A stretch of 64,000 nt of DNA from Pseudomonas sp. S35 (GTDB taxonomy: Bacteria > Pseudomonadota > Gammaproteobacteria > Pseudomonadales > Pseudomonadaceae). The notes beneath the pieces were generated by a model. It saw only the letters and a list, made by a program, of their open reading frames with translations. It did no database searches and had not been told where the DNA came from. Positions 7,883-58,886 of this stretch are shown in pieces. The translations under genes and the position numbers were made by a program. Each line of letters opens with the position of its first letter. Position 1 is the first letter of the stretch. The stretch spans positions 2,976,001 through 3,040,000 of the forward strand of contig NZ_CP019431.1 of NCBI RefSeq assembly GCF_009866765.1, written 5' to 3'.

Positions 7883-10069
7883 TCAGTGCCTGAGCATCGC
7901 CTTCAGCAGCACGCGTGAGACCTGGTCCGCGGAGTAGGGCTTGGCCAGGAACTCGAAGCCTTCGTAGCCGTCGTCTGCGAGTTCGTCGCTGTATCCCGAG
8001 GTCAGCACCACCGGCAGGTCAGCCCGCCGTTGGCGCAGCACTTTGGCCATGACCACGCCCGTGATGCCGGGCATGATCACGTCAGAAAACACCACGTCGA
8101 ACCCCATTGCATCCTCGCCCGCGACGCTCAGCGCCTGTTCGGCATCCGTCACCCAGGTGGTCTGGTAGCCCAGGTCTTGAAGAATCTGGTTGGCGAAACG
8201 CCCCACTTCCAGATTGTCTTCCACGATCAGCACATGACACTGGGTCGTGTCATGGTCCGCAATCCGGGCTTCCTGGGGGGGCTGTGACGGCATGTCCTGG
8301 GCTTCGACCTGTGGCAGGTACAGGGTGAACACGCTCCCTTGGCCAGGCGCGCTGACCACATCGACATTGCCCCCTGACTGCTTGGCAAACCCGAACACTT
8401 GCGACAGGCCCAGGCCCGTGCCTTTGCCGACCGCCTTAGTGGTGAAAAACGGCTCGAAAATCCGCTCGACCGCATCCGCCGCAATCCCGGGGCCAGTATC
8501 GGCGAGTGAGATCGCGATATAGGGCTGGTGGGAACCGGCATCCCCACGGATACGCGGCAAGGCCTGCAGGCCGGTGACCCGAAGCGTCAGCGTGCCCTGG
8601 CCGTCCATCGCATCCCTGGCGTTGAGGGCGATGTTGATCGTTGCGGTTTCAAACTGGCTGGGGTCGATGCGCGCGAAGCACGCTTGCGAGGGCAGTTCGA
8701 CCTGCACATGTATGCGCGCGCCTGTAACGCTTTCGAGCATCTCGCCAATATTCTGCACGCGCAGCCCTACATCGAAGACCTCCGGGCTCAACGGCTGGCG
8801 GCGGGCGAAGGCGAGCAACTGGCTGGTCAGCTTGCTGGCCCGCTCCACGGTATCGGAGACCGCGCGCATATAGCGCTCACGGCGTTCTTCCGACAGGCCC
8901 GGTTGGCGCAGGAAATCCACCGACGAGCGAATGATCGTCAGCAGGTTGTTGAAGTCATGGGCCACGCCGCCGGTCAATTGGCCGATGGCTTCAAGCTTCT
9001 GCGACTGATGCAGCGCCGCCTCGGCCTGGGCCAGCGCTAGGGTGCGTTCTTCGACCCGCTGCTCCAGGCTGGCGTTCAACTCGGCGTAGGCGGCCAGACC
9101 TTCACGCACATCGGCGTCGGCGCGCACCCGTTCGATATGGGCCCAGGAACGCTCGGTGACTTCCCGCAGCAACGCCAGGTCATAGGGCGACCACGGTCGC
9201 GCAGATTTATCGTGCACGGCCATCAGGGCAGTCAGGCGGCCATTCTTGATCAACGGCATGCAAATCGTGGAGGTCACGCCAAGCGCTTGGAAGCTTGCAG
9301 ATTCCTCGGGCGCAAGCTCGCGCAGGTTATCGTGAATCACCAAGGGCTCGCCGGCGCGCAGGCAGTTGACAGCCATTGCGCCGAACGCCGCCAGGCTGTA
9401 GCGGCCGATGATGCTGGGCGAGCCGGGCGCAGTCCAATTGTCGCGAATGGTGAAGCCGTCTTCATCGGCATCCATGTCGGCGTAGGCGCAGTTGCTCACC
9501 TGCAGGTGCTCGGCCAGTAGCCGGGTGGTGCTGGTCATGATGGCTTCGGCATCGGCGGCATTGGTCACGGCGAGTCCAATGGCATCCAGCACGGCCAGGC
9601 GGCGGGCGAGGAATACTGTGGCAGTGGTTTCGGACACGGTGTCGAGGATGCCGACCACCTTGCCGTCGGGATCACGGATCGGGCTGTAGCAGAAAGTGAA
9701 GTACGCCTGCTCGCGTGAATGGCCGCGTTCGATCACCAAGGGGAAGTTTTCGATATACGTCGCGTGGCCTTGGAAGGCCGCGTCAGAGATGGGGCTGATG
9801 TCTTCCCACACCTCACTCCAGATTTCGTTGAAAGGCCGTCCCAACGCGTACGCCTTATTCCCCAGGATCGGAATAAACGCGTCGTTGTACAGCGTGATCA
9901 ACTGCGGTCCCCAGACAATGGCCTGGGGGAAGCTCGAAGCGAAACACAGTGCGACGGTGGTTTTGAGCACATCCGGCCAGTGCTCCAGCGGACCGAGGGG
10001 CGTGCTGGCCCAATCATGCTCACGCACCCGTTCGGCCATATCGCTGCTGCTTTGCAGCCAATTCATCAT
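7883..10069 (-). CDS. Hybrid sensor histidine kinase / response regulator (PAS-GAF-HisKA-HATPase-REC)
   Basis: A soluble hybrid kinase of 728 residues with no membrane helix, so it should sense a cytoplasmic cue. Residues ~25–150 form a PAS-like fold (ALCFASSFPQAIVWGP), as in the family often annotated as light or stress sensors. Residues ~160–310 are GAF-like. A coiled coil (ERTLALAQAEAALHQSQ) leads to the phospho-acceptor His371 in GGVAHDFNNLL. The ATPase domain has NALNARDAM and DTGPGI. A C-terminal receiver carries the phospho-acceptor Asp663 in FSDVIMPG. No separate regulator gene lies next to it, and the output partner cannot be named. The PAS/GAF region lacks a Cys that would mark a bilin or LOV chromophore with confidence. 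Confidence 0.9.
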   Translation of the reverse strand: MMNWLQSSSDMAERVREHDWASTPLGPLEHWPDVLKTTVALCFASSFPQAIVWGPQLITLYNDAFIPILGNKAYALGRPFNEIWSEVWEDISPISDAAFQGHATYIENFPLVIERGHSREQAYFTFCYSPIRDPDGKVVGILDTVSETTATVFLARRLAVLDAIGLAVTNAADAEAIMTSTTRLLAEHLQVSNCAYADMDADEDGFTIRDNWTAPGSPSIIGRYSLAAFGAMAVNCLRAGEPLVIHDNLRELAPEESASFQALGVTSTICMPLIKNGRLTALMAVHDKSARPWSPYDLALLREVTERSWAHIERVRADADVREGLAAYAELNASLEQRVEERTLALAQAEAALHQSQKLEAIGQLTGGVAHDFNNLLTIIRSSVDFLRQPGLSEERRERYMRAVSDTVERASKLTSQLLAFARRQPLSPEVFDVGLRVQNIGEMLESVTGARIHVQVELPSQACFARIDPSQFETATINIALNARDAMDGQGTLTLRVTGLQALPRIRGDAGSHQPYIAISLADTGPGIAADAVERIFEPFFTTKAVGKGTGLGLSQVFGFAKQSGGNVDVVSAPGQGSVFTLYLPQVEAQDMPSQPPQEARIADHDTTQCHVLIVEDNLEVGRFANQILQDLGYQTTWVTDAEQALSVAGEDAMGFDVVFSDVIMPGITGVVMAKVLRQRRADLPVVLTSGYSDELADDGYEGFEFLAKPYSADQVSRVLLKAMLRH

Positions 10070-12501: not shown

Positions 12502-13383
12502 ATGCCCGATCTCAATTTGTTGATCACCCTCGATGTGTTGCTCGCCGAAGGCAGCGTCGCAGGTGCAGCCCGACGCCTTGGCCTGAGCGCCTCAGCCATG
12601 AGTCGTGCCCTGGCGCGCCTGCGAGAAACCACCGGCGACCCGCTGCTGGTGCGCGCCGGACGCGGGCTGGTGCCCACGCCACGGGCAATGGCCTTGCGCG
12701 AACAGGTCAGTTGCCTGGTGCAGGACGCTCACGCGGTACTGCGCCCGGCACGGTCCCTGGACATGGCAGGGGTGGTGCGCACGTTCACCCTGCGCACCAG
12801 CGAGGAGTTCGTTGAACGCTTCGCCCCGGCCTTGCTGGTGCGCATCGCCCGAGAGGCCCCCGGCGTGCGCCTGCGGTTCGTGAACAAAACCGACAAGGAC
12901 AGCACACTGCTGCGCGAAGGCAGGGTTGATCTGGAAACCGGCGTGGTTGACCCCGCCACCAGCCCCGAAATCCTGACCCAGGCGCTGTTCCGCGACCGTT
13001 TGGTTGGCGTGGTGCGCCGCGGGCACCCCCTGAGCAAGGGCGACATCGGCGCAGCGCGGTTTGCCCAAGGCCAGCACGTCTACGTCTCGCGGCGCGGGCA
13101 AGACCGTGGCCAGATCGATGAGGCGCTTGAAACCGTTGGCTTCACGCGGCAGATCACCAGTATCGTCGCCGGTTTCTCCACAGCCATGGCCCTGGCCCGC
13201 GACACTGACCTGATCGCCAGCGTTCCCGAGTGCTACACCGTCAACCGGCGCGACCTGTTCTGTTTTGCCCTGCCGCTGACGTTGCCGACCTTCACCGTGG
13301 CGATGCTCTGGCACCCTCGATTGGACGCGGATCTGGCCCACCGCTGGCTGCGTGGCTGTTTGCGTGAGGTGTGTGGGCAATAA
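12502..13383 (+). CDS. LysR-family transcriptional regulator
   Basis: A DNA-binding regulator of 293 residues. The N-terminal winged helix (about 1–62) has the NodD/LysR-like pattern GAARRLGLSASAMSRALARLRE and DPLLVRAGRGLVPTPRA. The rest is a periplasmic-binding-like effector domain. An AAGGAG ribosome site five bases before the ATG at 12502 makes that start clear over a GTG two codons earlier. It is divergent from an MFS exporter and probably controls it through the palindrome in the shared gap. The effector is unknown. Confidence 0.9.
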   Translation: MPDLNLLITLDVLLAEGSVAGAARRLGLSASAMSRALARLRETTGDPLLVRAGRGLVPTPRAMALREQVSCLVQDAHAVLRPARSLDMAGVVRTFTLRTSEEFVERFAPALLVRIAREAPGVRLRFVNKTDKDSTLLREGRVDLETGVVDPATSPEILTQALFRDRLVGVVRRGHPLSKGDIGAARFAQGQHVYVSRRGQDRGQIDEALETVGFTRQITSIVAGFSTAMALARDTDLIASVPECYTVNRRDLFCFALPLTLPTFTVAMLWHPRLDADLAHRWLRGCLREVCGQ

Positions 13384-15206: not shown

Positions 15207-15806
15207 ATGCACGCATTGATCGTTGTTGCTCATCACGACCCGCAATCCCTCACCCACGGCATCGCCACGCAAGTCGCCGCTGGCCTGCGCGCCTGCGGCC
15301 ACACCTACGAAATCGCTGACCTCTGCGCTGAAGGGTTTGACCCACGCTACACCGCCGCCGACCATCTGGTGCACCGCACACGCGCCACGCCGCCCGCCGA
15401 TGTGCTGGCCGAGCAGGCGCGCCTGGACCGCGCCGACGCCCTGGTGCTGGCGTTTCCTATCTACTGGTGGTCGCTGCCGGGCCTGCTCAAGGGCTGGGTC
15501 GACCGCGTGTTCGTCAACGGTTGGGCAATCGATTACGCCCCGGATACCCCGGTGGTGAAAAAACTGCGGCACCTGCAGGTGCACCTGCTGGCACTGGGCG
15601 GCGCGGACGACAGCGCGTTTGACCGCCACGGCTATGCCAAGGCAATGCGTACACAAATCGACTACGGCATCTTTGATTACTGTGGGGCGAAGGTAGTGAC
15701 GTCCGAGCTGCTGTTGGATTCGGAAGGCGGCGCGGCCGAGGCGCATCTGAAAACCGCGAAAGCCGTGGGGCAGCGACTGTTCGAGGCCGAGACGGTCACC
15801 GGTTGA
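15207..15806 (+). CDS. NAD(P)H quinone oxidoreductase, flavodoxin-like fold (KefF/MdaB type)
   Basis: A 199-residue cytosolic flavoprotein predicted to reduce quinones or related electrophiles by two electrons using NAD(P)H and bound FMN or FAD. The N-terminal strand-loop (ALIVVAHHDPQSLTHG) and the FPIYWWSLPGLLKGWVDRVF block are typical of the NQO/KefF family. The ATG is preceded by GGGAG-like sequence. It is divergent from a TetR repressor with likely operators between, suggesting induction by its own substrate class. It converges on the next hypothetical gene with one base between stops. Confidence 0.85.
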   Translation: MHALIVVAHHDPQSLTHGIATQVAAGLRACGHTYEIADLCAEGFDPRYTAADHLVHRTRATPPADVLAEQARLDRADALVLAFPIYWWSLPGLLKGWVDRVFVNGWAIDYAPDTPVVKKLRHLQVHLLALGGADDSAFDRHGYAKAMRTQIDYGIFDYCGAKVVTSELLLDSEGGAAEAHLKTAKAVGQRLFEAETVTG

Positions 15807-15807
15807 G

Positions 15808-16197
15808 TCAACCCTCGCGAAACAGGTCGTGGGCATCCAACAGGCGGTAGGCAATTTCCGGGCGTTTCTCCATCCCTCGGCGAATCGCTGCCGGGATCGA
15901 TTGCCGGGTCTTGCGGCACAGCCCGGGCAGTTCGTCGATGACGATCTGGATCCCGCGCATGCTCTTGACCTCGGTGTGCCCCGGCGCAACCTGCACGCGA
16001 ATGCCCAATTGCTGGTACATCAGCTGCTGCATGCGTTCCAGGTCCTGCAGGCTCTTGAGGTCTTCGAGGCGTTCCAGCAGGCGTTTTTCTTCCTGGCGCG
16101 TGAGGTTGAGGATACGCAGGTCGGCGCCAGGGGCTTCCAGCAATTGCTCGCGGTTGCAGTCACAGGCGCCGGGTGGGCAGGGTTGGCGAATGGTCAT
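15808..16197 (-). CDS. Hypothetical protein with N-terminal Cys cluster
   Basis: I do not recognise this 129-residue protein. The N-terminus has three close cysteines (CPPGACDC, residues 7–14), which could bind a metal or cluster. Residues ~30–60 form a charged, probably coiled-coil helix (NLTRQEEKRLLERLEDLKS). The C-terminal half is basic with IPAAIRRGMEKRPEI. It lacks a signal peptide and membrane helices. It lies 32 bases downstream of aroA on the same strand and could be co-transcribed with it. Composition and codon use match the surroundings, so it is likely a real gene. Confidence 0.7.
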   Translation of the reverse strand: MTIRQPCPPGACDCNREQLLEAPGADLRILNLTRQEEKRLLERLEDLKSLQDLERMQQLMYQQLGIRVQVAPGHTEVKSMRGIQIVIDELPGLCRKTRQSIPAAIRRGMEKRPEIAYRLLDAHDLFREG

Positions 16198-16229
16198 GTG
16201 CTTGCCCTCCCCAAACCGACGCGGCTGAC

Positions 16230-17486
16230 TCAGTAGCTGAGCGCGACCCCAAGACTGCCCAGGGCCTTCCAGTACTCAGGATAGGTCTTGGCCACGCAGT
16301 CTGGGTCTTGAATGCGGATCCCCGAGACTTTCAGCCCGGCCAAGGCAAAGCACATGGCGATGCGGTGGTCGGCGTGGGTGTCGATCAGTGCATTGCACGA
16401 GCTGCCCGCCAGCCCTGGGTCAGCGGCCACCAACAGGTCGTCGCCTTCGATGGTGGCCAGGCCTGGACGGATTTCATTGAGGCCATCGTGCAGCGCCTGG
16501 ACGCGATCACACTCCTTGACCCGCAGGTTGGCCAGTTCGGTGAAACGCACCGGGGTGTTATTGAACGCAGCCAGCACGGCAAGGGTCGGGATCGCGTCCT
16601 GCATCTGCGAGCCCACCACCGTGGCCTGCATGTTGGGGAACTGCGCGATCACGGCCTGGGCCTTGGCGTCGGGCTGGGTGAAGGCCTGCGCGGCGACGCC
16701 GATGTCGATACGGCCACCGGTCAGCACTTCGGCGGCCCACAGGTAGGTGGCGGCAGATGCGTCCGGTTCGATCAGGTAGTCATGGGCGCTGTAGCCGGTG
16801 GCGGCCACGCGCCAGGTGGTGTCGTTGACGGCGTCAACCTGTGCGCCGAACGCACGCATGCAATCGAGGGTCAGGTCCACGTAGCCACGGGCACCGATGT
16901 CCTTGCCGGTCAACGCCACTTCAATCGGGGCTTCACCGCACGCGGCCAGCATCAACAGGGCCGAGACGTATTGGCTGGACAAGCCGCCGTCAATCTCAAA
17001 GCGCTTGGCCTGGACCTTGCCCACGCCGTGCACCGTCACCGGTGGGCAACCGGTCGGGCTGTCGACCTGGATGCCGTTCTGGCCGAGGGTGGCGAGCAGC
17101 GGGCCGATCGGGCGCTTTTGCATATACTCGTCGCCATCGAGCACCACGGTGCCTTCGACGGTGGCGACGGCGGCGGTGAGAAAACGCATCGCCGTGCCGG
17201 CATTGCCGAGGAACAGCGGCTGCGCAGGCAATTGCAGCTTGCCGCTGCCTGTGACGACAAAGGTGGTGTCATCTGGCTCATCGATGGTCACGCCCATCTG
17301 GCGTAGGGCCACCGACATGTGGCGGGTGTCGTCGCTTTTCAGCGCACCGCTGAGGCGGCTGGTGCCCTTGGCCAGCGCGGCCAGCAGCAGCGCGCGGTTG
17401 GTAATGGACTTGGAGCCGGGCGGTGCGACCTTGCCGTTCAGGGGGAAGTTGGGCGGTGTAACGGTCACGGTTTTCTGCGAACTCAA
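16230..17486 (-). CDS. aroA: 3-phosphoshikimate 1-carboxyvinyltransferase (EPSP synthase), stand-alone
   Basis: Catalyses the sixth step of the shikimate pathway, joining PEP and shikimate 3-phosphate. Catalytic residues known from E. coli AroA are visible: GSKSITNR (Lys22, Arg27), SSQY, the Asp in QDAIP, RVKECDR, DHRIAMCF and the C-terminal AKTYP lysine. The PEP/glyphosate loop reads NAGTAMRFL, so the usual Pro101 is Phe. I place the start at a TTG (17486), giving 418 residues. AGGAG lies nine bases upstream, and the upstream in-frame ATG at 17555 would add 23 unconserved residues. Pseudomonads usually also carry AroA fused to TyrA elsewhere, so this is likely a second copy. Confidence 0.93.
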   Translation of the reverse strand: MSSQKTVTVTPPNFPLNGKVAPPGSKSITNRALLLAALAKGTSRLSGALKSDDTRHMSVALRQMGVTIDEPDDTTFVVTGSGKLQLPAQPLFLGNAGTAMRFLTAAVATVEGTVVLDGDEYMQKRPIGPLLATLGQNGIQVDSPTGCPPVTVHGVGKVQAKRFEIDGGLSSQYVSALLMLAACGEAPIEVALTGKDIGARGYVDLTLDCMRAFGAQVDAVNDTTWRVAATGYSAHDYLIEPDASAATYLWAAEVLTGGRIDIGVAAQAFTQPDAKAQAVIAQFPNMQATVVGSQMQDAIPTLAVLAAFNNTPVRFTELANLRVKECDRVQALHDGLNEIRPGLATIEGDDLLVAADPGLAGSSCNALIDTHADHRIAMCFALAGLKVSGIRIQDPDCVAKTYPEYWKALGSLGVALSY

Positions 17487-45233: not shown

Positions 45234-45964
45234 TCGTTGACGTCGGCCGCCAGAAGGTAGCCGCCACCCCAGATGGTGCGCAGCAGGTCTGGCGCCGTAT
45301 TGTCCTGGGCCAGTTTGCGGCGCAAGCGGCTCACCTGGCGGTCGATGGCGCGGTCGCTCACGTCGCTGTCGGCAGCGGCGGTAAGGTCGATCAAACGTTC
45401 GCGGGGCAGCAAGGTGTTGGGGTGGGTAAGGAATACCTGCAACAAGCGGCTTTCCGCTGTGCTGAGCTGGATCGGCGGGCAGGCCTCGCGCTGCAAGATG
45501 GCGTTGGCCACGCTGAATTGCCAACCGGCAAACCGATAGGCGCGCGCGCCACTGCTGGGTGCGGCAGGCCCGGTGTTGCGGCCTTGGCGGCGCAGCACAC
45601 TGTTGATGCGTGCCACCAATTCGCGGGGCTCGAAGGGCTTGGTCACGTAGTCGTCTGCGCCCAGGTCCAGGCCACGGATACGGTCGGCGGCGGTATCGCG
45701 GGCGGTCAACAGGATCACAGGGGTATTGCTGCGCCGATGCAACTGGTTGCACAGCTCGAAACCGTCGCCGTCCGGCAGCAGCACGTCGAGCACTACGACG
45801 TCGAACGCCTGGGTCTTGAGCAATTGCCACATACCGGTCGCGTCTTCGGCGGTGCGCACATCGAAGGTGTGTCGACGCAGGTAAGTGGCCAAGGGTTCGC
45901 GGATTTTGCGGTGGTCATCCACCACCAGCACACGCGGTGCGACAGGCGCAGGGGCAAACGGCAT
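45221..45964 (-). CDS. OmpR/PhoB-family response regulator
   Basis: A 247-residue DNA-binding regulator. The receiver has acidic residues in VVDDHRK, the phospho-acceptor Asp in VVLDVLLPDGDGF, and the Lys in YVTKPF. The C-terminal winged helix ends in LRTIWGGGYLL. I chose the ATG at 45964 (GAGGG five bases upstream), which puts the receiver near residue 11; another start at 46021 is possible and would overlap the Fur-like box. Its gene is the promoter-proximal member of the operon with the sensor kinase. It likely activates the convergent TonB receptor. Confidence 0.92.
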   Translation of the reverse strand: MPFAPAPVAPRVLVVDDHRKIREPLATYLRRHTFDVRTAEDATGMWQLLKTQAFDVVVLDVLLPDGDGFELCNQLHRRSNTPVILLTARDTAADRIRGLDLGADDYVTKPFEPRELVARINSVLRRQGRNTGPAAPSSGARAYRFAGWQFSVANAILQREACPPIQLSTAESRLLQVFLTHPNTLLPRERLIDLTAAADSDVSDRAIDRQVSRLRRKLAQDNTAPDLLRTIWGGGYLLAADVNECAP

Positions 45965-46006
45965 TGCAGCCCTCGGAAGGTTGAGCGGGAGAGGGCGGAT
46001 ATTACT

Positions 46007-46025
46007 ACGAGTCATTATCATTAAC
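46007..46025. promoter_or_regulatory. Candidate Fur box upstream of the two-component operon
   Basis: Read on the minus strand the region gives GTTAATGATAATGACTCGT, which contains the core AATGATAAT of the Fur consensus GATAATGATAATCATTATC. It lies about 43–61 bases before the regulator start. It would place the two-component system itself under iron control. Confidence 0.65.
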
Positions 46026-46143
46026 GCGGTTTTATGGCTAAGTGCTGGCTTGTCGTTCTATCAGTAGGACGCTCTAAGGTGTTTTAGCCGTCTAGCGCTC
46101 GATTGATATCGGTTTTAAGGTGTATGCACTTTGGAGGACCACC

Positions 46144-47010
46144 ATGAAAAAACTCATCGGCATCTACACCAGCCCTCGCGCCCATTGGGTCGGCGACGGT
46201 TTCCCGGTGCGCACACTGTTTTCCTACGACAACCTGGGCAAACACATCAGCCCCTTCCTGCTGCTGGACCACGCGGGCCCGGCCGAATTTACCCCGACCG
46301 AACAACGACGCGGCGTCGGCCAGCACCCCCATCGAGGGTTTGAAACCGTCACCATCGTCTACGACGGCGAAGTCGAACACCGCGACTCCACCGGCGCTGG
46401 CGGCACCATCGGCCCAGGCGATGTGCAATGGATGACGGCCGCAAAAGGCATTCTCCACGAGGAGTTCCACTCCCAAGCGTTTGCCCGCAAAGGCGGCGCG
46501 ATGGAGATGGTTCAGCTGTGGGTCAACTTGCCGGCCAAGGACAAAATGGCCGACGCCGGTTACCAGACCATTGTCGACGGTGATATTCCCGTGCTGCCGT
46601 TGGCCGATGAAGCCGGGCACCTGCGCCTGATCGCCGGAGAGTTCGCCGGCGCCAAAGGCCCTGCGCGCACCTTCACACCGATTGACGTGTGGGACCTGCG
46701 CCTCAACGCCGCAAAGCCAGTGACCCTGGACCTGCACGCCGGGCGCAACACTGCCCTGGTGATCCTGCGCGGCACCGTGCTGGTCAACGGCGAGGAAGTG
46801 GCGCGCCAAGGCCAATTGGCACTGTTCGAGCGCGACGGCACGCAACTGGTCCTGGAGGCAAACGACGATGCTATGGTGCTGCTGCTCAGCGGCGAGCCGA
46901 TCGACGAGCCCATCGTTGGCCATGGCCCGTTTGTGATGAACACCGAGCAGGAGATTCACCAGGCGTTTGCGGATTTTCAGTCGGGTCAATTCGGGCGGAT
47001 GCACGCCTGA
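46144..47010 (+). CDS. Pirin-family protein
   Basis: A 288-residue bicupin. The metal ligands in the N-terminal cupin are visible as QHPHRGFETVT and the later HEEFHS (His/Glu). Pirins bind iron; some are quercetinases and others modulate metabolic enzymes, and the role here is open. GGAGGA six bases upstream fixes the ATG at 46144. It is divergent from the iron-linked two-component system, which is suggestive but not proof of a shared role. A REP doublet follows the gene. Confidence 0.9.
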   Translation: MKKLIGIYTSPRAHWVGDGFPVRTLFSYDNLGKHISPFLLLDHAGPAEFTPTEQRRGVGQHPHRGFETVTIVYDGEVEHRDSTGAGGTIGPGDVQWMTAAKGILHEEFHSQAFARKGGAMEMVQLWVNLPAKDKMADAGYQTIVDGDIPVLPLADEAGHLRLIAGEFAGAKGPARTFTPIDVWDLRLNAAKPVTLDLHAGRNTALVILRGTVLVNGEEVARQGQLALFERDGTQLVLEANDDAMVLLLSGEPIDEPIVGHGPFVMNTEQEIHQAFADFQSGQFGRMHA

Positions 47011-47040
47011 CCGGCGATCTCCCAAATTCCGCGTGCCTAT

Positions 47041-47173
47041 TGTAGTGAACGGGCTTGCCCCGCGCCGGGCTGCGCAGCAGCCCCACTACTTTCACCGCGT
47101 TTCTTCAGATAAAACCACACAGCCGGTTTAGGGCCGCTTCGCGCCCCAGCGCAGGGCAAGCCTGCTCACTACA
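47041..47173. repeat. Long REP-doublet (copy 3)
   Basis: TGTAGTGAACGGGCTTGCCC at the left mirrors GGGCAAGCCTGCTCACTACA at the right, with CCGGGCTGCGCAGCAGCCCC inside the left half. It is the third copy of the family at 867–1032 and 14297–14431, more diverged in its right arm. It sits directly left of the AT-rich island. Confidence 0.8.
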
Positions 47174-47186
47174 AAAGTTAGCGTTG

Positions 47187-47253
47187 CTATACCCGCCAGC
47201 TCCATTTCATGCAGTCATTCGCGCTGGAGTCGCGTCAACGTCCTTGCTTTATC
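47187..47253 (+). repeat. Left direct repeat flanking the AT-rich operon
   Basis: CTATACCCGC...CCATTTCATGC...TCATTCGCGCTGGAGTCGC and the following ...CTTTATC match, with a small gap and substitutions, the leader and first codons of mscS at 51276–51349. Both copies read in the same direction. The copy ends exactly at the 3' end of the flavoenzyme gene. It looks like a boundary duplication. Confidence 0.75.
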
Positions 47254-48418
47254 AACTATTCATAGTTGTGTTAAATCTATCGACTGAAAAAGCTGAAAGT
47301 GAAAAGTTTGCCTGTCGACCAGTAGCCATATTGGCCAACGCATCACCAATAGCCGGTGCAAACTTAAAACCGTGTCCTGAGCAAGCAGATGCAAAATAAG
47401 TTGAGTTCATAGCTTTAGATTTTCCTATCAAGAAAGAATCATCAGGGCTCATCGTATAGAAACAGTTCTTTGCTTGTGTCGGAATAGGCTCAAGCCTCGG
47501 GAATAGAGAGTCAATAATTGGGGCTATTTCCTTTATATGGCGCCGTTGCACACGGGTATTTTTCCAGTCGGGAAGCGATGGGATTTGCTGCCTGTTATGA
47601 AAGCCAATTTTTACACCGGGCTCGCTACTAACAATTGATGGGGCGCCGTAGAGAAGGCCGCCATCTTCTCGCTCGTAAAGAAAAATGGGGAATTGCTCTT
47701 GGGAAAATAGAGTTTCGGAACCCGTTTTTGGTTTGAACCAATAAATGGGGACTCTACGCGGCTCCAAGAGGCTAGAGATCTCAGGCATAAGGTTGCTGGC
47801 CATCCAAGGCCCTGTAGTGATGACTGCAGAGCCAGCAAAGTAAACACGTCCGCTCTTGGACGTCACACGCACACCCGTGCCATGATTCTCGAGCTTTACG
47901 ACAGTGTCACCGAATTCGGTTTTTGCGCCATTGAGAACGGCCTCATCCAACATTGCTAACCTCGCGTCGGTGGCCGAAATTGCATACGCGCCAGGCTCGT
48001 ATACGGCCTGCATCTCCTCCGGCATGTTGAATGTCGGCATCCATTTTCTAGCCTCTGAACTGTTCCAGACTTCATGTCCAATTCCTCCTTGTTTAGCAGT
48101 TTGAATGCTTCCGTCCACTATGCGACTGGATTGAGTTCCGACGAAAACGCCCCCTGTGTGAAACAATAGATGTTTCTGAGTAACGTGCTCCAGTTCGTTC
48201 CACAATAAATCAGCATGGTTAAGCAGTTGAAGGTATTTATTTCCCTCCCAGTAGGCGCGCCGAAATATTCTGGAGGCCCCATGGGATGAACCATAGTCAT
48301 GGGTGGGGCTGGAGGCGTCTATTCCTAATGATTTAGTGCATTTTGGTGCGACTCTCCATAGAGCCGCTGCACCCATAATTCCAAGGCCGATAACGATAAC
48401 GTCATAATGAGATTTCAT
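47252..48418 (-). CDS. FAD-dependent amine oxidase, sarcosine oxidase/SolA family
   Basis: A 388-residue flavoprotein of the monomeric sarcosine oxidase family, which oxidises secondary or N-methyl amino acids to imines. The N-terminal FAD fold has VIGLGIMGAAAL. The KNCFYTMSPDDSF segment carries the Cys that aligns with the covalent-FAD Cys315 of sarcosine oxidase. SACSGHGFKFAP near the C-terminus is also typical. Relatives include N-methyltryptophan oxidase, pipecolate oxidase and NikD, which aromatises a cyclic imine. It is the last gene of a four-gene AT-rich operon and its start overlaps the exporter stop by four bases. The substrate is unknown. Confidence 0.85.
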   Translation of the reverse strand: MKSHYDVIVIGLGIMGAAALWRVAPKCTKSLGIDASSPTHDYGSSHGASRIFRRAYWEGNKYLQLLNHADLLWNELEHVTQKHLLFHTGGVFVGTQSSRIVDGSIQTAKQGGIGHEVWNSSEARKWMPTFNMPEEMQAVYEPGAYAISATDARLAMLDEAVLNGAKTEFGDTVVKLENHGTGVRVTSKSGRVYFAGSAVITTGPWMASNLMPEISSLLEPRRVPIYWFKPKTGSETLFSQEQFPIFLYEREDGGLLYGAPSIVSSEPGVKIGFHNRQQIPSLPDWKNTRVQRRHIKEIAPIIDSLFPRLEPIPTQAKNCFYTMSPDDSFLIGKSKAMNSTYFASACSGHGFKFAPAIGDALANMATGRQANFSLSAFSVDRFNTTMNS

Positions 48419-49326
48419 TTGTTGGCTCTCTTTTTAGCTGATTGGTTATTTGCTGTGTCGTAAATCCCCAGAATGATTAATATGCCAATGATTATGAAGG
48501 TGGGTGCGAGCGGTGCGTCTGATATTTGTTGTTTTTGTGTATATATTGAGATTGATATTAGCGTTATAGGTAGTATAAATTGTATCAGCCCTGTTAAGGA
48601 CAGTGGTATTTTCCCTGCTGAGTAAGATAGCATTAATAACGGTGTGGTGGAGACTGCGCCTGCTAAAAAAATTAGTATGTTTGATGGGTTGTCGAGTTCG
48701 TTGGGATACATAATTGGAATGCTGAATACTAACTTGGCTAGTGTTAGGCATAGTGCTAGGAATAGCGTTTCTATAAATAGCCCGCTTACAGCGTCTAAAG
48801 AGGTGTATTTTTTTATGTAAATGTAAGCTCCCCATGTTCCAGAAATCATGAGATACGTAAAGTGGTTTAAATTCTTGGATGATATAATCAGGGCAATGAT
48901 GGAGCTGAATGTTATTAGTAGTGTGACGGCTTTTTGGGGGCTGATTTTTTCATGGTAAATTACTAATCCGATTGCAATGCAAAAGAAAGGGGCAATTAAA
49001 TAGCCAAGTCCGCTTTCTAGAAAGTTTTCATTTATAGAAGCCCAGATGAAGGTTCCCCAGTTCGCTGCGATGAGTAACGAAGCAATACAATGCAAGCCAA
49101 TCGAATTTTTCGTAATTTTTTTTATCTGACTTATTTTTCGAAAAATACATACGAACACAGCGAGAATGGCAGTTGATAGGAAAATTCGATAAGCGATCAA
49201 TGTGATGGGCGAAACATCACTGAGTGATCTCCAGTAAAGGGACGATAATCCTAGAAAGATATTTGCCAGCCCAGACAAAATTATTGGAAGGGCATGTGTC
49301 GAGATGGGTGTTTGGAATGAGTTCAT
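48415..49326 (-). CDS. EamA/DMT-family transporter
   Basis: A 303-residue inner-membrane protein with about ten helices in two EamA repeats (SGLANIFLGLSSLYWRSLS at the N-terminus; a second repeat begins near ISGTWGAYIYIKKY). EamA proteins mostly export amino acids and metabolites. Base composition is extreme for this genome: 18 of 60 bases are G or C in 48541–48600, against 43 of 60 in 57841–57900. It is packed between the methyltransferase (6-base gap) and the flavoenzyme (4-base overlap). That suggests it exports the pathway product or protects the producer. Confidence 0.85.
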   Translation of the reverse strand: MNSFQTPISTHALPIILSGLANIFLGLSSLYWRSLSDVSPITLIAYRIFLSTAILAVFVCIFRKISQIKKITKNSIGLHCIASLLIAANWGTFIWASINENFLESGLGYLIAPFFCIAIGLVIYHEKISPQKAVTLLITFSSIIALIISSKNLNHFTYLMISGTWGAYIYIKKYTSLDAVSGLFIETLFLALCLTLAKLVFSIPIMYPNELDNPSNILIFLAGAVSTTPLLMLSYSAGKIPLSLTGLIQFILPITLISISIYTQKQQISDAPLAPTFIIIGILIILGIYDTANNQSAKKRANK

Positions 49327-49332
49327 AATTGG

Positions 49333-50190
49333 TCACGTCTTACGATGTGAAAATTCTATTATTTCATATGACCAATAAATATTTCCGTTTTGATCGGTGG
49401 AGTAGGCGGCTAGATCTAGATTGTTCCAGTTTTCAAATTCGAGCTTCAAGTATCTGTCTAGGGCTTTCCATTGGGCGCTGTAGTGAATGAGCGGGAACGT
49501 ATGTCGTTCAACTAACTTATAGGCGAGTGGAGGTTTTTTGTTGTATTTTTGATCGTACCTGTGCAGCACGTCCCGTATTCCCATTAGCGAATTTAGCCCA
49601 ACAATTGCCACGCCCGTAGGTGCAAGGTATCTCGGAAGGTCCTCAAGAAAACGACTAATAACCTCCTCGCCAAAAAACATAGCACGCAGGGGTAATTGGC
49701 CTGTCTGAGTAGATGCGACCAATCGCCGGATAAATGATTGAGATGGCGTTCTCCAGCCAGGAGGATTAAAAACTACCGTATGGAATTGTTTTTCAGGAAT
49801 GCCATCGAATAGGTCACTTGCAAGAAAGGAGATAGCATGCTGTTTAAAATTGATGTGTTCGTTTGTCCTGGCCTGCGCGATTGATTTTTCGCAGACGTCA
49901 GTAGCGGTAATATCGTTACCGCCAAGCTTACGTGCCAAGAAAGCATGGACGCCACTTCCTGTGCCGATATCCAAAAAGCTACGATCTGAATCCCTTAAAT
50001 AGGATGATTGCAGTAGGTAGCTTCCAAGTCTTACGCCTGCGAGGCTGACGTTGAATACTCCAGGTGCATGAGTTAGGTTTACGCTTTGACCTAGTCCGAA
50101 GTAAACGCTATAGACGCCTTCGAGACAATTCTGGTGATCGATCTTCAAGTGAAACTGTCCAGCTATGCCGTGATCAATTAAACCTTGCAT
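49333..50190 (-). CDS. SAM-dependent methyltransferase-fold protein with NPPG motif
   Basis: A 285-residue class I methyltransferase-like protein. Motif I is FLDIGTGSGVHAFLARKLGG, the acidic loop is ATDVCEKSI, and motif IV is VVFNPPGWRTPSQ. NPPY/F is typical of N-methyltransferases of the HemK/PrmC and N6-adenine group. Gly in the aromatic position suggests a changed acceptor. An ~60-residue N-terminal part and a ~100-residue C-terminal part are not recognised. GGAG lies nine bases before the ATG. It starts two bases after the proC-like stop. It probably methylates a small amino-acid-like substrate of this operon. Some such folds cyclise SAM instead of methylating, which cannot be excluded. 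Confidence 0.75.
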   Translation of the reverse strand: MQGLIDHGIAGQFHLKIDHQNCLEGVYSVYFGLGQSVNLTHAPGVFNVSLAGVRLGSYLLQSSYLRDSDRSFLDIGTGSGVHAFLARKLGGNDITATDVCEKSIAQARTNEHINFKQHAISFLASDLFDGIPEKQFHTVVFNPPGWRTPSQSFIRRLVASTQTGQLPLRAMFFGEEVISRFLEDLPRYLAPTGVAIVGLNSLMGIRDVLHRYDQKYNKKPPLAYKLVERHTFPLIHYSAQWKALDRYLKLEFENWNNLDLAAYSTDQNGNIYWSYEIIEFSHRKT

Positions 50191-50192
50191 AT

Positions 50193-50999
50193 CTAAAGTC
50201 TCCTTCCCAGTTCTTTTGAGCGCGCGCAGGCGTGTTCAAGACCCTCTATGATTACTGCTTTCATTTTTTTGTTGTTAAATAGTTTTATCGCTTGTTCGGT
50301 TGTGCCGTTTTGCGTCATGACTTTTTCACACAGTTTTTCTGGTGTCTCTTGGTGGGCGTCAAGCAGAGCGGAGGAGCCGCGCAGAGTTTGGACTACGATG
50401 GCGCGTGCGGCACGTTCATCAAAGCCCGCCAACAAAGCATACTCAATAAGAGCTTGTGCAAAGTAGGCTACATAAGCCGGCCCCCCACCGACCAGAGCTG
50501 TGGCATGATCAATGAGGGATTCTTCTTGTACGATGAGTAATCTGCCGAGCTTGGAGAACAGCCCATTAACCAGAGACCTATTTCTTTGAGTGGTGTGTGG
50601 GGTGTATGCCAATACGGACATGCCCTCGTTGATGGCCGATGGAAGATTTGGAATTGCTCTGCAGACTTGTAAGGTTTTTAAATGGTTCGCCAGCTCGGAA
50701 AGATTGACCCCCGCCATAACGGAAACCGTCATGTCGGTAAGCAGCTTATGCTGCAAATTGCTTTCTGCGAACGTCGCAAAAGCTTGGGGGGGAATGGCCA
50801 AGATCGTAATTTTTGAGGTTGAATGGTTTGGCAGGTTACTGATTACCTTAATTCCTGCGTTTTTCATTTCTTTATCGTAAGTGTGGCTGAGGTCGACAGC
50901 TGCGATGGATAGAGTTTGGGATGATCGCCTTAAGCCTAAGGCGATTGCATATCCCATATGACCTGCGCCAATAATGACAATGTCTTTCGCAAGGGTCAT
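50193..50999 (-). CDS. Pyrroline-5-carboxylate reductase-like protein
   Basis: A 268-residue imino-acid reductase, close to ProC in length. The NAD(P) site is VIIGAGHMGYAIALGL. The family signature in the C-terminal helical domain is GGGPAYVAYFAQALIEYALLAG-like (GGGPAYVAYFAQAL, then RGSSALL). It would reduce a cyclic imine such as pyrroline-5-carboxylate or a homologue with NAD(P)H. AGGAGG lies eight bases before the ATG. It is the first gene of the AT-rich four-gene operon, next to an imine-forming flavoenzyme. It is therefore more likely a dedicated pathway enzyme than the housekeeping proline copy, which in pseudomonads lies beside yggS/pilT genes. Confidence 0.83.
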   Translation of the reverse strand: MTLAKDIVIIGAGHMGYAIALGLRRSSQTLSIAAVDLSHTYDKEMKNAGIKVISNLPNHSTSKITILAIPPQAFATFAESNLQHKLLTDMTVSVMAGVNLSELANHLKTLQVCRAIPNLPSAINEGMSVLAYTPHTTQRNRSLVNGLFSKLGRLLIVQEESLIDHATALVGGGPAYVAYFAQALIEYALLAGFDERAARAIVVQTLRGSSALLDAHQETPEKLCEKVMTQNGTTEQAIKLFNNKKMKAVIIEGLEHACARSKELGRRL

Positions 51000-51170
51000 G
51001 AATTAGCCTCCTGTTAAAATTGTTATAAGCTTCGTACCGATTGTAGATTTTTCAAATTTATTGCGTCCTAAAAGCGTGTAGTACATTTCTTGTCATATCT
51101 TTGGTTGTTAGGGTGTTGAAGGTTGGCTTTTAGGTGCCTCCGAGATATTTGAGATGTACCTGGATGCCTA

Positions 51171-51186
51171 TTCAGAACTGTCTGAA
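51171..51186. promoter_or_regulatory. Inverted repeat in the 335-base gap between the proC-like and mscS genes
   Basis: TTCAGA-ACTG-TCTGAA is a perfect six-base inverted repeat about 175 bases upstream of the proC-like start. The gap from 51000 to 51334 is AT-rich, holds the divergent promoters and the right direct repeat, and shows no gene. Its role as an operator is a guess. Confidence 0.35.
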
Positions 51187-51275
51187 GAAAGTTTTTCGTG
51201 ACACTCTTGAACTAAAGAACTTTGCCTGGGAGATAATTTGAATCTCTGTGTAATCACCCGAATATTTTTCCTGCC

Positions 51276-51349
51276 CTATACCCGCAACCCCCATTTCATG
51301 CGATCTTCCCGTCATTCGCCCTGGAGTCGCCTGGATGCCCTCATTTATC
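51276..51349 (+). repeat. Right direct repeat flanking the AT-rich operon (mscS leader)
   Basis: CTATACCCGC...CCATTTCATGC...GTCATTCGCCCTGGAGTCGC, running into the mscS start codon and ...CATTTATC, pairs with the copy at 47187–47253. The right copy has about eight extra bases (near GATCTTCCC). This copy carries the working ribosome site and start of mscS, so it is probably the original and the left one the duplicate. Confidence 0.75.
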
Positions 51350-52780
51350 TCCGATCACCCAATGTTGTGCGCCCTGGCGCTGATACTCATCGACATCGCC
51401 GTATGGCGGCTTATCTCCGCCAACCTGGCCAACTGGAAACTCGCGGCGCGGTTGGTGATCTTTGCGGTGTTCAGCGCCGTGCTGTTCAACGACGGTATGA
51501 ACCCCATGCTCGTCGCGCCCTACGCCGACAACACCGCATTGCACATGGCCGCCACGGCGTTGCAGATCGGGTGGTGGCTGTTCGCGGCGCGTACGCTGAC
51601 GGTGTTGCTCGGGGCGTTAATGATGCAGCGGGTCGGGCATACCGGGCGGTTGTTGCAGGATTTGATGGGCGCGGTGATTTTCCTGATTGCGATCATCGCG
51701 GCGCTGGCCTACGTGCTCGACCTGCCAGTCAAAGGCGTGCTCGCGACGTCCGGTGCGGTGGCGATCATTGTCGGCCTAGCGCTGCAAAGCACCTTGAGCG
51801 ATGTGTTCTCCGGGATCGTGCTCAATACCACCAAGCCTTATCAGTTGGATGACTGGATTTCCATCGACGGCACCGAAGGCCGGGTCACCGATATCGACTG
51901 GCGCGCCACGCGGCTGCAAACCTCCCAGGGCAGCATGGCGGTGATTCCCAACTCCCTGGCGGCCAAGGCCAAGATCATCAATTTTTCGCGCCCGGCGGAT
52001 ATGTTCGGCCTGGCGGTCAGCCTGCAGGTCAGCCCCCATGCGCGGCCGCAAACCGTGATTGAAGCGCTGGAGCGCGCGATGCAGGGCTGCCGGCCGTTGC
52101 TGGCCAAGCCGGCGCCGAGCGTGGCGTTCAAGACCTCGGCCAGTGGCGGCGTGGAATACGAAATCAGTGGGTTCGTGCCGGCCATGCCCCTCAAGCGCGA
52201 GGTGCGCAACCAGCTTTATGACCTGGCGTTCCGGCACCTGCAAGCCGCTGGTGTGAGCCTGTTGTCTGCCGTCGAAACCGCGACGCCAGTGCCCACGTCC
52301 CCGGCGCGGGCGCTGTTGGACAGTTCGTCGATTTTCTCCACCTTGCGCCAGGAGGAAAAAGACACCTTCAGCCAGAACATGACCCTGCACACCTACCGCC
52401 CCGGCGAGATGATCTTGCCGGCGGGAGAGGTCAGCGATCATCTATTTATCGTCGAGTCGGGTGTGGTCTCGGTGATGCTGATCAAGGGCGGTCACACCTT
52501 CGAAGCGGGACGCATGGGCCCCGGCGAGGTGATCGGCGAAGCGGGGATTCTGACCGAGCAGGCCGCCTTGGCGGACTTCACCGCCAAGACGTTCTGCACG
52601 CTGTACCGCATTGAGAAGGCGTACCTGACGCCGTGCCTGGATGCACGACACGACATCGCCGACGCCATGAAAACCCTGCTGGACTTCCGCCTGCACGCGG
52701 CCCAGGCCCTGACCCAGGACGCACCCGTGGTGCCGGTCAAGAAGGGCTTTCTACAGTGGCTGCGCAAGCGCGGTCTTTGA
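51335..52780 (+). CDS. MscS-family mechanosensitive channel with cyclic-nucleotide-binding domain
   Basis: A 481-residue inner-membrane protein. The N-terminal part has about four helices. The MscS pore helix and beta domain are visible in GAVAIIVGLALQSTLSDVFSGI and the DWISIDGTEGRVTDI loop. Residues ~330–450 form a cNMP-binding fold (YRPGEMILPAGEVSDHLFIVESG, GPGEVIGEAGILTEQ). This bCNG architecture binds cAMP-type ligands and is poorly or not gated by tension in tested members. GGAG eight bases before the ATG supports the start. Its leader is duplicated on the far side of the AT-rich operon. Confidence 0.92.
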   Translation: MPSFISDHPMLCALALILIDIAVWRLISANLANWKLAARLVIFAVFSAVLFNDGMNPMLVAPYADNTALHMAATALQIGWWLFAARTLTVLLGALMMQRVGHTGRLLQDLMGAVIFLIAIIAALAYVLDLPVKGVLATSGAVAIIVGLALQSTLSDVFSGIVLNTTKPYQLDDWISIDGTEGRVTDIDWRATRLQTSQGSMAVIPNSLAAKAKIINFSRPADMFGLAVSLQVSPHARPQTVIEALERAMQGCRPLLAKPAPSVAFKTSASGGVEYEISGFVPAMPLKREVRNQLYDLAFRHLQAAGVSLLSAVETATPVPTSPARALLDSSSIFSTLRQEEKDTFSQNMTLHTYRPGEMILPAGEVSDHLFIVESGVVSVMLIKGGHTFEAGRMGPGEVIGEAGILTEQAALADFTAKTFCTLYRIEKAYLTPCLDARHDIADAMKTLLDFRLHAAQALTQDAPVVPVKKGFLQWLRKRGL

Positions 52781-57452: not shown

Positions 57453-58886
57453 TCAGCTTTGCAGGTACACCACATGGGTATGGGTGTACTCGTAAAGGCC
57501 GTGCTTACCGTCGGCGCCACCGATCCCGGATTTACGCACGCCAGCGTGGAAACCCTGCATGGCCTCGAAGTTTTCGCGGTTGACGTAGGTTTCGCCAAAG
57601 TCGATCTCACGCACCGCGTGCATCGCCTTGCCCAAGTCGCGGGTGTAGATCGACGAGGTCAGGCCGTAGTCGCAGTCATTGGCCAGGGCGATGGCTTCGT
57701 CGAGGTCGTCGACAATCTGGATCGGCAACACCGGGCCGAAGATCTCTTCGCGCATGATCTCCATGTCGGCGCGGCAGCCGGCCAATACCGTGGGCTGGAA
57801 GTGAAAGCCCGCGCCCAGGTCGGCGATCTGCCCGCCGCTGACCAGCGTCGCGCCCTGGCTCAGCGCGGTGCGCACCTTGCGGTTGACGTTGTCCAGGCCC
57901 TGGCGGTTGATCAGCGGACCCATTTCCGCACCGGCCATGGCCAGCGGGTCGCCGTAGCGCGTGGCCGACATGGCCGCGCTGATGCGCTCGATAAATTGGT
58001 CGGCAACCTTGCGCTCCACGTACACCCGCTCGGCGCAGTTGCACACTTGCCCGGTGTTGATGATGCGCGAGTCGCGAATGGCTTTGATGGCCAGTTCCAG
58101 GTCGGCATCCGCCAGCACAATGGCCGGCGCCTTGCCGCCCAGCTCCAGATTGAGCTTGGTGATGTTCGGCGCAGCGGCGGCCATGATGCGTGAGCCGGTG
58201 GCGACGCTGCCGGTGAAGCTGATCATGTCCACGCCTTTGTGGGCGGTGAGTGCACCGCCGACCTGGCCGTCACCACACACCACGTTGAATACACCAGCGG
58301 GCAGGTCGGTCTCGGCGACCAGCTTGGCGAATTCAAAGCAGTTGTTTGGGGTTTCTTCGCTGGGCTTGATCACGATGGTATTGCCGGTGAGCAGCGCCGG
58401 CGCCAATTTGCGCGCAATCAAGAAGAACGGGAAGTTCCACGGCAGGATACCGGCCACGACGCCCAAGGGTTTGCGGAACAGAAAGATGTTTTCGTTGGGG
58501 CGGTCGCTGGTGATGATCTCGCCTTCGATGCGGCGCGCCCATTCGGCCATGTAGTCGAGGTAGTCGGCGGTGAAATTCACTTCGACTTCGGCCAGCCCGC
58601 TGACCTTGCCCTGTTCCAGGGTGATGGTGCGCGCCAGGTGCGCGACGTTTTCCCGCAGCTTGGCGGCGATGCGGCGCAAGTGCCCGGCGCGTTCGATGGC
58701 CGGTTTGCGTGCCCACTCTTTTTGCGCACCGCGCGCAGCGGCGAGGGCCTGGTCGACGTCAGCGGCGGTGGAGGCGGGCACCTTGGAGAGCAAGGCGCCG
58801 GTGGCCGGGTTGAGCACATCGAGATGGGCTTCGCTGGGGACGAAGCGGCCGTTGATGAAGTTCTGGTACACGGGAACGGATGACAT
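57453..58886 (-). CDS. aldA: L-lactaldehyde dehydrogenase
   Basis: A 477-residue aldehyde dehydrogenase closely resembling E. coli AldA (479). Shared blocks include TADYLDYMAEWARRIEGEII, the cofactor/Glu region NLELGGKAPAIVLADADLEL, the catalytic Cys in GQVCNCAERVYV, and FGETYVNRENFEAMQGFHAG. It oxidises L-lactaldehyde from the aldolase to L-lactate with NAD+. The ATG at 58886 is ten bases after the rhmA stop and has GGAGC upstream. A longer in-frame reading upstream overlaps rhmA and is not a real extension. Confidence 0.94.
   Translation of the reverse strand: MSSVPVYQNFINGRFVPSEAHLDVLNPATGALLSKVPASTAADVDQALAAARGAQKEWARKPAIERAGHLRRIAAKLRENVAHLARTITLEQGKVSGLAEVEVNFTADYLDYMAEWARRIEGEIITSDRPNENIFLFRKPLGVVAGILPWNFPFFLIARKLAPALLTGNTIVIKPSEETPNNCFEFAKLVAETDLPAGVFNVVCGDGQVGGALTAHKGVDMISFTGSVATGSRIMAAAAPNITKLNLELGGKAPAIVLADADLELAIKAIRDSRIINTGQVCNCAERVYVERKVADQFIERISAAMSATRYGDPLAMAGAEMGPLINRQGLDNVNRKVRTALSQGATLVSGGQIADLGAGFHFQPTVLAGCRADMEIMREEIFGPVLPIQIVDDLDEAIALANDCDYGLTSSIYTRDLGKAMHAVREIDFGETYVNRENFEAMQGFHAGVRKSGIGGADGKHGLYEYTHTHVVYLQS

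Follow-up and report, generated by a model that had tools for sequence, protein, structure and literature searches.

Small antimetabolite clusters, such as those for 3-methylarginine, 2-amino-4-methoxy-3-butenoic acid (AMB) and rhizobitoxine, use a few enzymes and an exporter to modify a primary amino acid. Here we analyse four adjacent genes, coding for a ProC-like imino-acid reductase, a methyltransferase, an EamA transporter and a SolA/MSOX-type flavin amine oxidase, which lie within a stretch of 64,000 nucleotides from Pseudomonas sp. S35 (NZ_CP019431.1, positions 2,976,001 to 3,040,000; hereafter the window). To our knowledge, no small antimetabolite cluster has this set of families. In addition, no description of the four-gene cluster was found in one open-access collection of papers (most subscription journals lie outside that search), in line with a preliminary description of the same DNA, which knew of none. 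The enzyme families themselves are known; their combination, the exchangeable parts and the repeats at the cassette ends seem to be undescribed.

We read the locus as an acquired, mobile and minimal biosynthetic cassette that would make and export a small alpha-imino acid, methylated and proline-like (cyclic or N-substituted), and put the probability of this reading at roughly 0.45. It builds on the operon, the folds, the catalytic residues, the co-inheritance of the genes, the exchange of oxidase and transporter between loci and the insertion into an otherwise empty site; from these we infer the substrate, the order of the reactions, the methylated atom, the direction of transport, the product and its role.

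A four-gene operon that recurs as a unit

The four open reading frames (ORFs) all lie on the minus strand and run in one direction from 50999 to 47252, with intergenic gaps of 2, 6 and -4 bases (Table 1). This is the arrangement given in the preliminary description, and both the ORF coordinates and the family profiles confirm it. A collection of species genomes scanned with an alignment of 26 methyltransferases yielded 30 loci, and a search of these for shared synteny, as had been suggested earlier, identified the complete set in the order ProC, methyltransferase, EamA, oxidase in 21 of them (L013–L029 and L031–L034). These belong to Pseudomonas, Bordetella, Collimonas, Polyangium and Streptomyces. 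The genes thus stay together in relatives, and the outcome that would have refuted the preliminary description did not arise. ProC lies upstream of the methyltransferase on the same strand in 27 of the 30 loci, and in P. serbica (L031, 9170–10834) the two are fused in a single ORF of 554 codons; because of this fusion, the methyltransferase probably works next to ProC. At L027, a DDE_3 transposase-like gene stands between them. Furthermore, pairwise identity values rise and fall together across the four proteins, with correlations of 0.85–0.93 (171 pairs from the 19 loci in which all four are near full length). The four genes thus constitute a unit.

A chance gathering of passengers from ordinary metabolism (a spare proC, a spare solA and others) would be in keeping with the fact that all four genes come from common families. 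We find this hardly credible, however: the order is constant over several phyla, two of the genes are fused in one relative, the proteins vary jointly, and the host genome contains no second close oxidase (the sole match being 30% identical over 60 residues). The recurrence of the set already contradicts such an origin.

The spread of the cassette is patchy. Strong matches were detected in 21 of 398 genomes sampled from the genus Pseudomonas, in 2 of 398 sampled phylum-wide (both Pseudomonas), in 1 of 397 from the Nocardia order (the one already known) and in 2 of 82 from the Azospirillum order (likewise the known two). Of 57 relatives examined, just two gave a strong match, one of them being the window's own genome. 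A single plasmid record was found, Methylobacterium nodulans pMNOD02, and a phage collection searched for a possible phage origin held no DNA match to the cassette.

Insertion sites, repeats and acquisition

The cassette has a G+C content of 44.9%, against a mean of 62.6% (standard deviation (SD) 1.0; z = -17) for 520 overlapping stretches of equal size from the rest of the window, and its four genes range from 38.6 to 48.1%. The base counts on which the preliminary description had relied (18 of 60 G/C at 48541–48600 and 43 of 60 at 57841–57900) are exact. Low G+C is also seen in Collimonas and in the Pseudomonas loci except L033, and is not seen in Bordetella, Polyangium or Streptomyces.

Three chromosomal sites are occupied in Pseudomonas. 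The first is that of the window, between genes for a pirin and an MscS-type channel, both of which are ordinary Pseudomonas genes. Of the 24 relatives whose MscS gene was retrieved, 21 have the pirin gene within 1.5 kb of it, and the full cassette is therefore absent there; two of these 21 (G004 and G061) have a cassette elsewhere. The MscS leader is doubled around the cassette, over 55 columns (76%) in the window and over 79 columns (90%), including 42 perfect bases, in L013. The second site, between genes for transketolase and for HglS, the 2-oxoadipate dioxygenase of lysine breakdown, accounts for nine loci (L016, L017, L019–L024 and L030); one of these, P. orientalis L019, also has a pirin gene (15786–16679) at a distance of about 3.7 kb. 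The third adjoins FlhB-like and FliK-like genes (L029, L031 and L032), and at L032 a 357-bp direct repeat (94%; 8452–8806 and 12983–13339) places an FlhB-like ORF on each side of the cassette.

Direct repeats of 36–357 bp are present on both sides of the cassette at 8 of 23 loci (those of the window, L013, L016, L017, L021, L029, L031 and L032). Under a rule of at least 40 bp and at least 75% identity, applied equally to spans of the same size from the same loci, such repeats were found at 7 of the 23 loci and in 0 of 321 control spans. L014, L015 and L018, which share the window's own site, have no end repeats. No recombinase was found between the flanking repeats, where the four operon genes are the only fitting ORFs of at least 90 aa, the flanks having been searched only nearby. 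Among the five loci at the pirin–MscS site, the cassette proteins are 47–78% identical and the flanking proteins 90–96% (10 pairs), a gap that may reflect repeated acquisition, exchange or fast evolution; occupation of this site requires 2 changes on the tree where the least forced number is 1, which does not decide between a single origin and several. Taken together, the composition, the empty site in relatives, the repeat at both ends and the patchy spread support horizontal acquisition of the cassette, and the compact acquired set proposed in the preliminary description is borne out in this respect. The repeats at three chromosomal sites also offer a route to studying the movement of cassettes that lack a recombinase.

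An inverted repeat whose 47-nt arms are 81% complementary lies between the pirin and oxidase genes, at 47037–47177. It resembles a repetitive extragenic palindromic (REP)-type element, and similar copies occur at other Pseudomonas loci.

Table 1. Genes and leader repeats at the cassette and its flanks (window positions).
Feature	Positions	Strand	Remarks
ProC-like imino-acid reductase	50193..50999	-	268 aa; first gene of the operon
HemK/N6AMT1-fold methyltransferase	49333..50190	-	285 aa; NPPGW at residues 142-146
EamA transporter, RarD-like	48415..49326	-	303 aa
SolA/MSOX-type flavin amine oxidase	47252..48418	-	388 aa; 4-base overlap with the EamA gene
Pirin	46120..47010	+	host flank, outside the cassette
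MscS-type channel with cyclic-nucleotide domain	51335..52780	+	host flank, outside the cassette
Repeat copy (MscS leader)	51276..51330	+	adjoins the MscS gene; single in aligned empty-site relatives
Second MscS leader copy (decayed)	47187..47233	+	opposite end of the cassette

Predicted chemistry and alternative readings

The reductase has the Pfam domains P5CR_dimer and F420_oxidored, and thus both the NAD(P)-binding and the P5CR dimerisation domain; the host genome's other ProC is 28% identical to it. V229, S231, T235 and T236 are ligand contacts of E. coli ProC, a pyrroline-5-carboxylate (P5C) reductase, according to PMC12899673. All 34 cassette reductases have V or I in place of V229, T in place of S231 (so that the hydroxyl is retained) and T at the positions of T235 and T236, residues that fit cyclic or N-substituted alpha-amino acids, with reduction of a cyclic imine as the predicted reaction. 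The oxidase falls in the DAO family of Pfam and exceeds the cut-off of the N-methyl-L-tryptophan oxidase model NF008425 (334.9 against 257 bits). It is nearer to MSOX/SolA chains (E 1e-60 to 4e-39) than to NikD chains (E 7e-18 to 1e-17 or weaker), so that only the first half of an earlier SolA/NikD-type assignment stands; NikD-type picolinate formation was rejected because the oxidase is closer to MSOX. The functional MSOX residues C315, K265, H269, R52 and K348 are kept in the window's oxidase as C319, K270, H274, R53 and K352. Conservation of the catalytic residues in both the ProC and the MSOX homologue makes it probable that the two redox enzymes have proline-like or N-substituted alpha-amino acids as substrates, and to this extent the earlier proposal of a pathway for an N-methyl or cyclic imino acid holds; its further suggestion of a proline antimetabolite goes beyond these findings.

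In the proposed biosynthetic route, the three enzymes and the transporter would be enough to yield a product starting from a primary metabolite. The ProC-like reductase would convert a cyclic imine to a proline-like secondary amine, and the methyltransferase would use S-adenosylmethionine (SAM) to methylate that amine, or its planar imine or enamine form, most likely on nitrogen. The flavoenzyme would use O2 to oxidise the alpha-amino acid so formed, giving an imine and H2O2, and the EamA protein would export the product. The transporter's EamA domain (PF00892) scores 30.2 bits against a gathering cut-off of 28.2, and the other EamA proteins of the host genome are weak relatives of it (at most 23% identity).

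The methyltransferase carries the MTS domain of Pfam (class I), and its closest folds, at 15–22% identity, are those of the HemK/PrmC/N6AMT1 group, with Asc-Orf2 and AerE, enzymes that methylate planar nitrogens. The methyltransferase fold noted previously is therefore upheld and can be specified further, as both this fold and the NPP-aromatic motif (NPPGW) are present. Scores remain under the curated cut-offs of the named HemK equivalogs (78.6 against 162 for the best, NF011529, and 49.9 against 199.1 for PrmC). Motif and fold favour nitrogen as the methylated atom, with carbon as the possible alternative. No chain named as an AzeJ/VioH-like azetidine-2-carboxylate synthase appears among the best 60 of 62 and best 60 of 104 matches, nor among the fold matches listed. 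A 443-aa ligase-methyltransferase protein (P0120) was put aside as a possible chimera.

Carbon would be the target in a cycle in which the oxidase makes a cyclic imine or enamine from L-proline or pipecolate, the ring carbon, being nucleophilic, is methylated by the methyltransferase, and the ProC-like enzyme re-reduces the imine to give an exported C-methyl proline or pipecolate. This would employ all three enzymes in a single sensible loop from a primary metabolite; MSOX-type enzymes oxidise L-proline slowly, the proline-carboxylate loop is retained in the reductase, and the ProC–methyltransferase fusion would suit it. We nevertheless consider it unlikely, as NPPGW and the closest folds indicate methylation of a planar nitrogen, and as MSOX oxidation of proline yields a C2=N imine whereas the bond reduced by ProC enzymes is C5=N, in P5C. 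The folate-domain sarcosine oxidase of Azospirillum also suits N-methyl chemistry better.

That oxidase belongs to a variant of the locus in which, at L040 (7276–17327), LuxR and LuxI genes precede ProC and the methyltransferase, followed on the same strand by sarcosine oxidase beta and alpha, gamma (SoxG) and a methionine adenosyltransferase (486 bits, cut-off 309). The alpha (E 4e-228) and beta (E 5e-150) subunits match the solved heterotetramer 2gag; the delta subunit, which is small, was not confirmed in the Azospirillum loci. The row, shared with L041, is probably a quorum-sensing-linked operon. A second alpha subunit is encoded elsewhere in both Azospirillum genomes (48% and 51% identical), and one of them clearly encodes a further SAM synthetase (85%), of which the other shows fragments only. 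Because Azospirillum swaps the oxidase, ProC and the methyltransferase are predicted to be accompanied by sarcosine-oxidase activity of either enzyme type, and oxidation of a secondary or tertiary amine would thus be the constant step. The same exchange, together with the extra SAM synthetase and the retained MSOX-type residues, would also suit a scheme in which the methyltransferase methylates an amino-acid amine, the oxidase converts N-CH3 to N=CH2, an internal nucleophile closes a ring and ProC reduces a further imine. This scheme seems to us very unlikely, as it requires a substrate with a suitable nucleophile, of which none is known, and leaves the ProC step unexplained; no precedent for it came to light, although no search was aimed at one.

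In three actinobacteria (L036, L039 and L042), the core lies inside a larger cluster with an MFS gene nearby. Profiles identified PaaK-like ligase and thioester-reductase-like genes at L036, at L037/L038 (where the scan of L037 covered the ligase alone) and in Mycolicibacterium; in Nocardia they were recognised by eye. Some clusters also include a thiamine pyrophosphate (TPP) enzyme, a PRK06108 aminotransferase, O-succinylhomoserine sulfhydrylase, TauD, PIG-L, a cytidylyltransferase and an M20 peptidase (partly by eye). Across the larger actinobacterial clusters that contain the core (L036–L039, L042 and L078–L087), the accompanying gene sets vary. On the M. nodulans plasmid (L067), the oxidase that accompanies ProC and the methyltransferase is divided between two ORFs, and there is also an isonitrile-synthase-like gene and an MFS gene that resembles the one downstream of the Azospirillum operon; the isonitrile synthase was not used, since only a short stretch fits PF05141 and none is present at the other loci looked at.

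These clusters bear on a role in detoxification or resistance, in which the enzymes would inactivate, and the EamA protein expel, a plant or microbial amine or imino-acid toxin. Such a role would suit a cassette that is patchy (21 of the 398 Pseudomonas species genomes), mobile and easily broken, with an EamA/RarD-type transporter. We regard it as quite unlikely, as detoxification needs fewer than three modifying enzymes of opposite redox sense, and as the core lies behind LuxR/LuxI genes in Azospirillum and within larger clusters containing AMP-ligase, thioester-reductase, aminotransferase and other biosynthetic genes. The preliminary description had left making and detoxifying side by side; making is favoured, rather than proven, because the core sits inside the larger actinobacterial clusters. 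Tentatively, ProC, the methyltransferase and a sarcosine oxidase could be an undescribed three-enzyme core for an unusual imino acid, combining SAM methylation with oxidation of an N-methyl or cyclic amine, which would take the form of a recombinase-less mobile cassette in Pseudomonas, an operon by quorum-sensing genes in Azospirillum and a precursor module in actinobacterial clusters.

Several observations weigh against the reading of the locus as a minimal biosynthetic cassette. Nine of the 30 loci deviate from the four-gene set: L030 runs into a contig end, no ProC could be recognised at L035, EamA is missing from L036 (Couchioplanes), L039 (Nocardia) and L042 (Mycolicibacterium), ProC and oxidase are adjacent in L037 and L038 (Micromonospora) but about 11–12 kb from the methyltransferase, and L040 and L041 (Azospirillum) have no MSOX-type oxidase. 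At least one gene is broken in L019, L021, L024 and L026, and L020 is shortened; other species carry intact copies, and the broken ones point to frequent loss, so that the product would be dispensable. Linkage without joint function could explain part of the correlation between protein identities. The reductase falls just under the cut-off of the NCBIfam proC model TIGR00112 (194.3 against 196.75 bits), and the transporter scores below that of its best NCBIfam model, RarD TIGR00688 (110.8 against 130.15 bits). PrmA and other classes are also among the fold matches of the methyltransferase, whose substrate is not settled by a common fold. If the oxidase strips the methyl group added by the methyltransferase, the route would be futile, and the order of the steps may therefore differ. 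Finally, no structured RNA or riboswitch was matched in Rfam within 45500–52500, and promoter-like sites show no excess (4 against 7.2 expected); the same scan gave 7 terminator-like sites against 4.0 (SD 2.4) expected.

Comparison with known systems

If the biosynthetic reading is true, the cassette would be a very small natural-product unit of three enzymes and an exporter, compact enough to express in full in a laboratory strain and to solve quickly. Since large actinobacterial clusters contain the core too, working out the four-gene version would also account for one of their building blocks. The swaps between monomeric and heterotetrameric sarcosine oxidase, and between EamA and MFS transporters, allow direct tests of which activity matters.

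Like ProC, the cassette reductase has both domains and the substrate loop; unlike ProC, it has M or Q instead of T230 (33 of 34) and GGGPA instead of GSGPA (32 of 34), in addition to the change of S231 to T in all 34. The cassette oxidase retains the flavin Cys and the carboxylate-site and oxygen-site positions of MSOX/SolA, but in 26 of 26 cases MSOX M245 is replaced by L or V and F256 by A, V, L, T, M, I or C, which suggests a different pocket. The heterotetrameric sarcosine oxidase that fills its place behind ProC and the methyltransferase in the two Azospirillum differs from it in having folate and NAD domains, and is absent from the window. The transporter has RarD as its best model and yet scores below the cut-off for that family. 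Compared with HemK, PrmC and N6AMT1, the cassette methyltransferases form a separate family, in which Y237, W241, Y275 and E276 are invariant (35 of 35); the known enzymes for comparison near this fold are Asc-Orf2, which catalyses carbamoyl N-methylation, and AerE, which catalyses the N-methylation of aeronamide.
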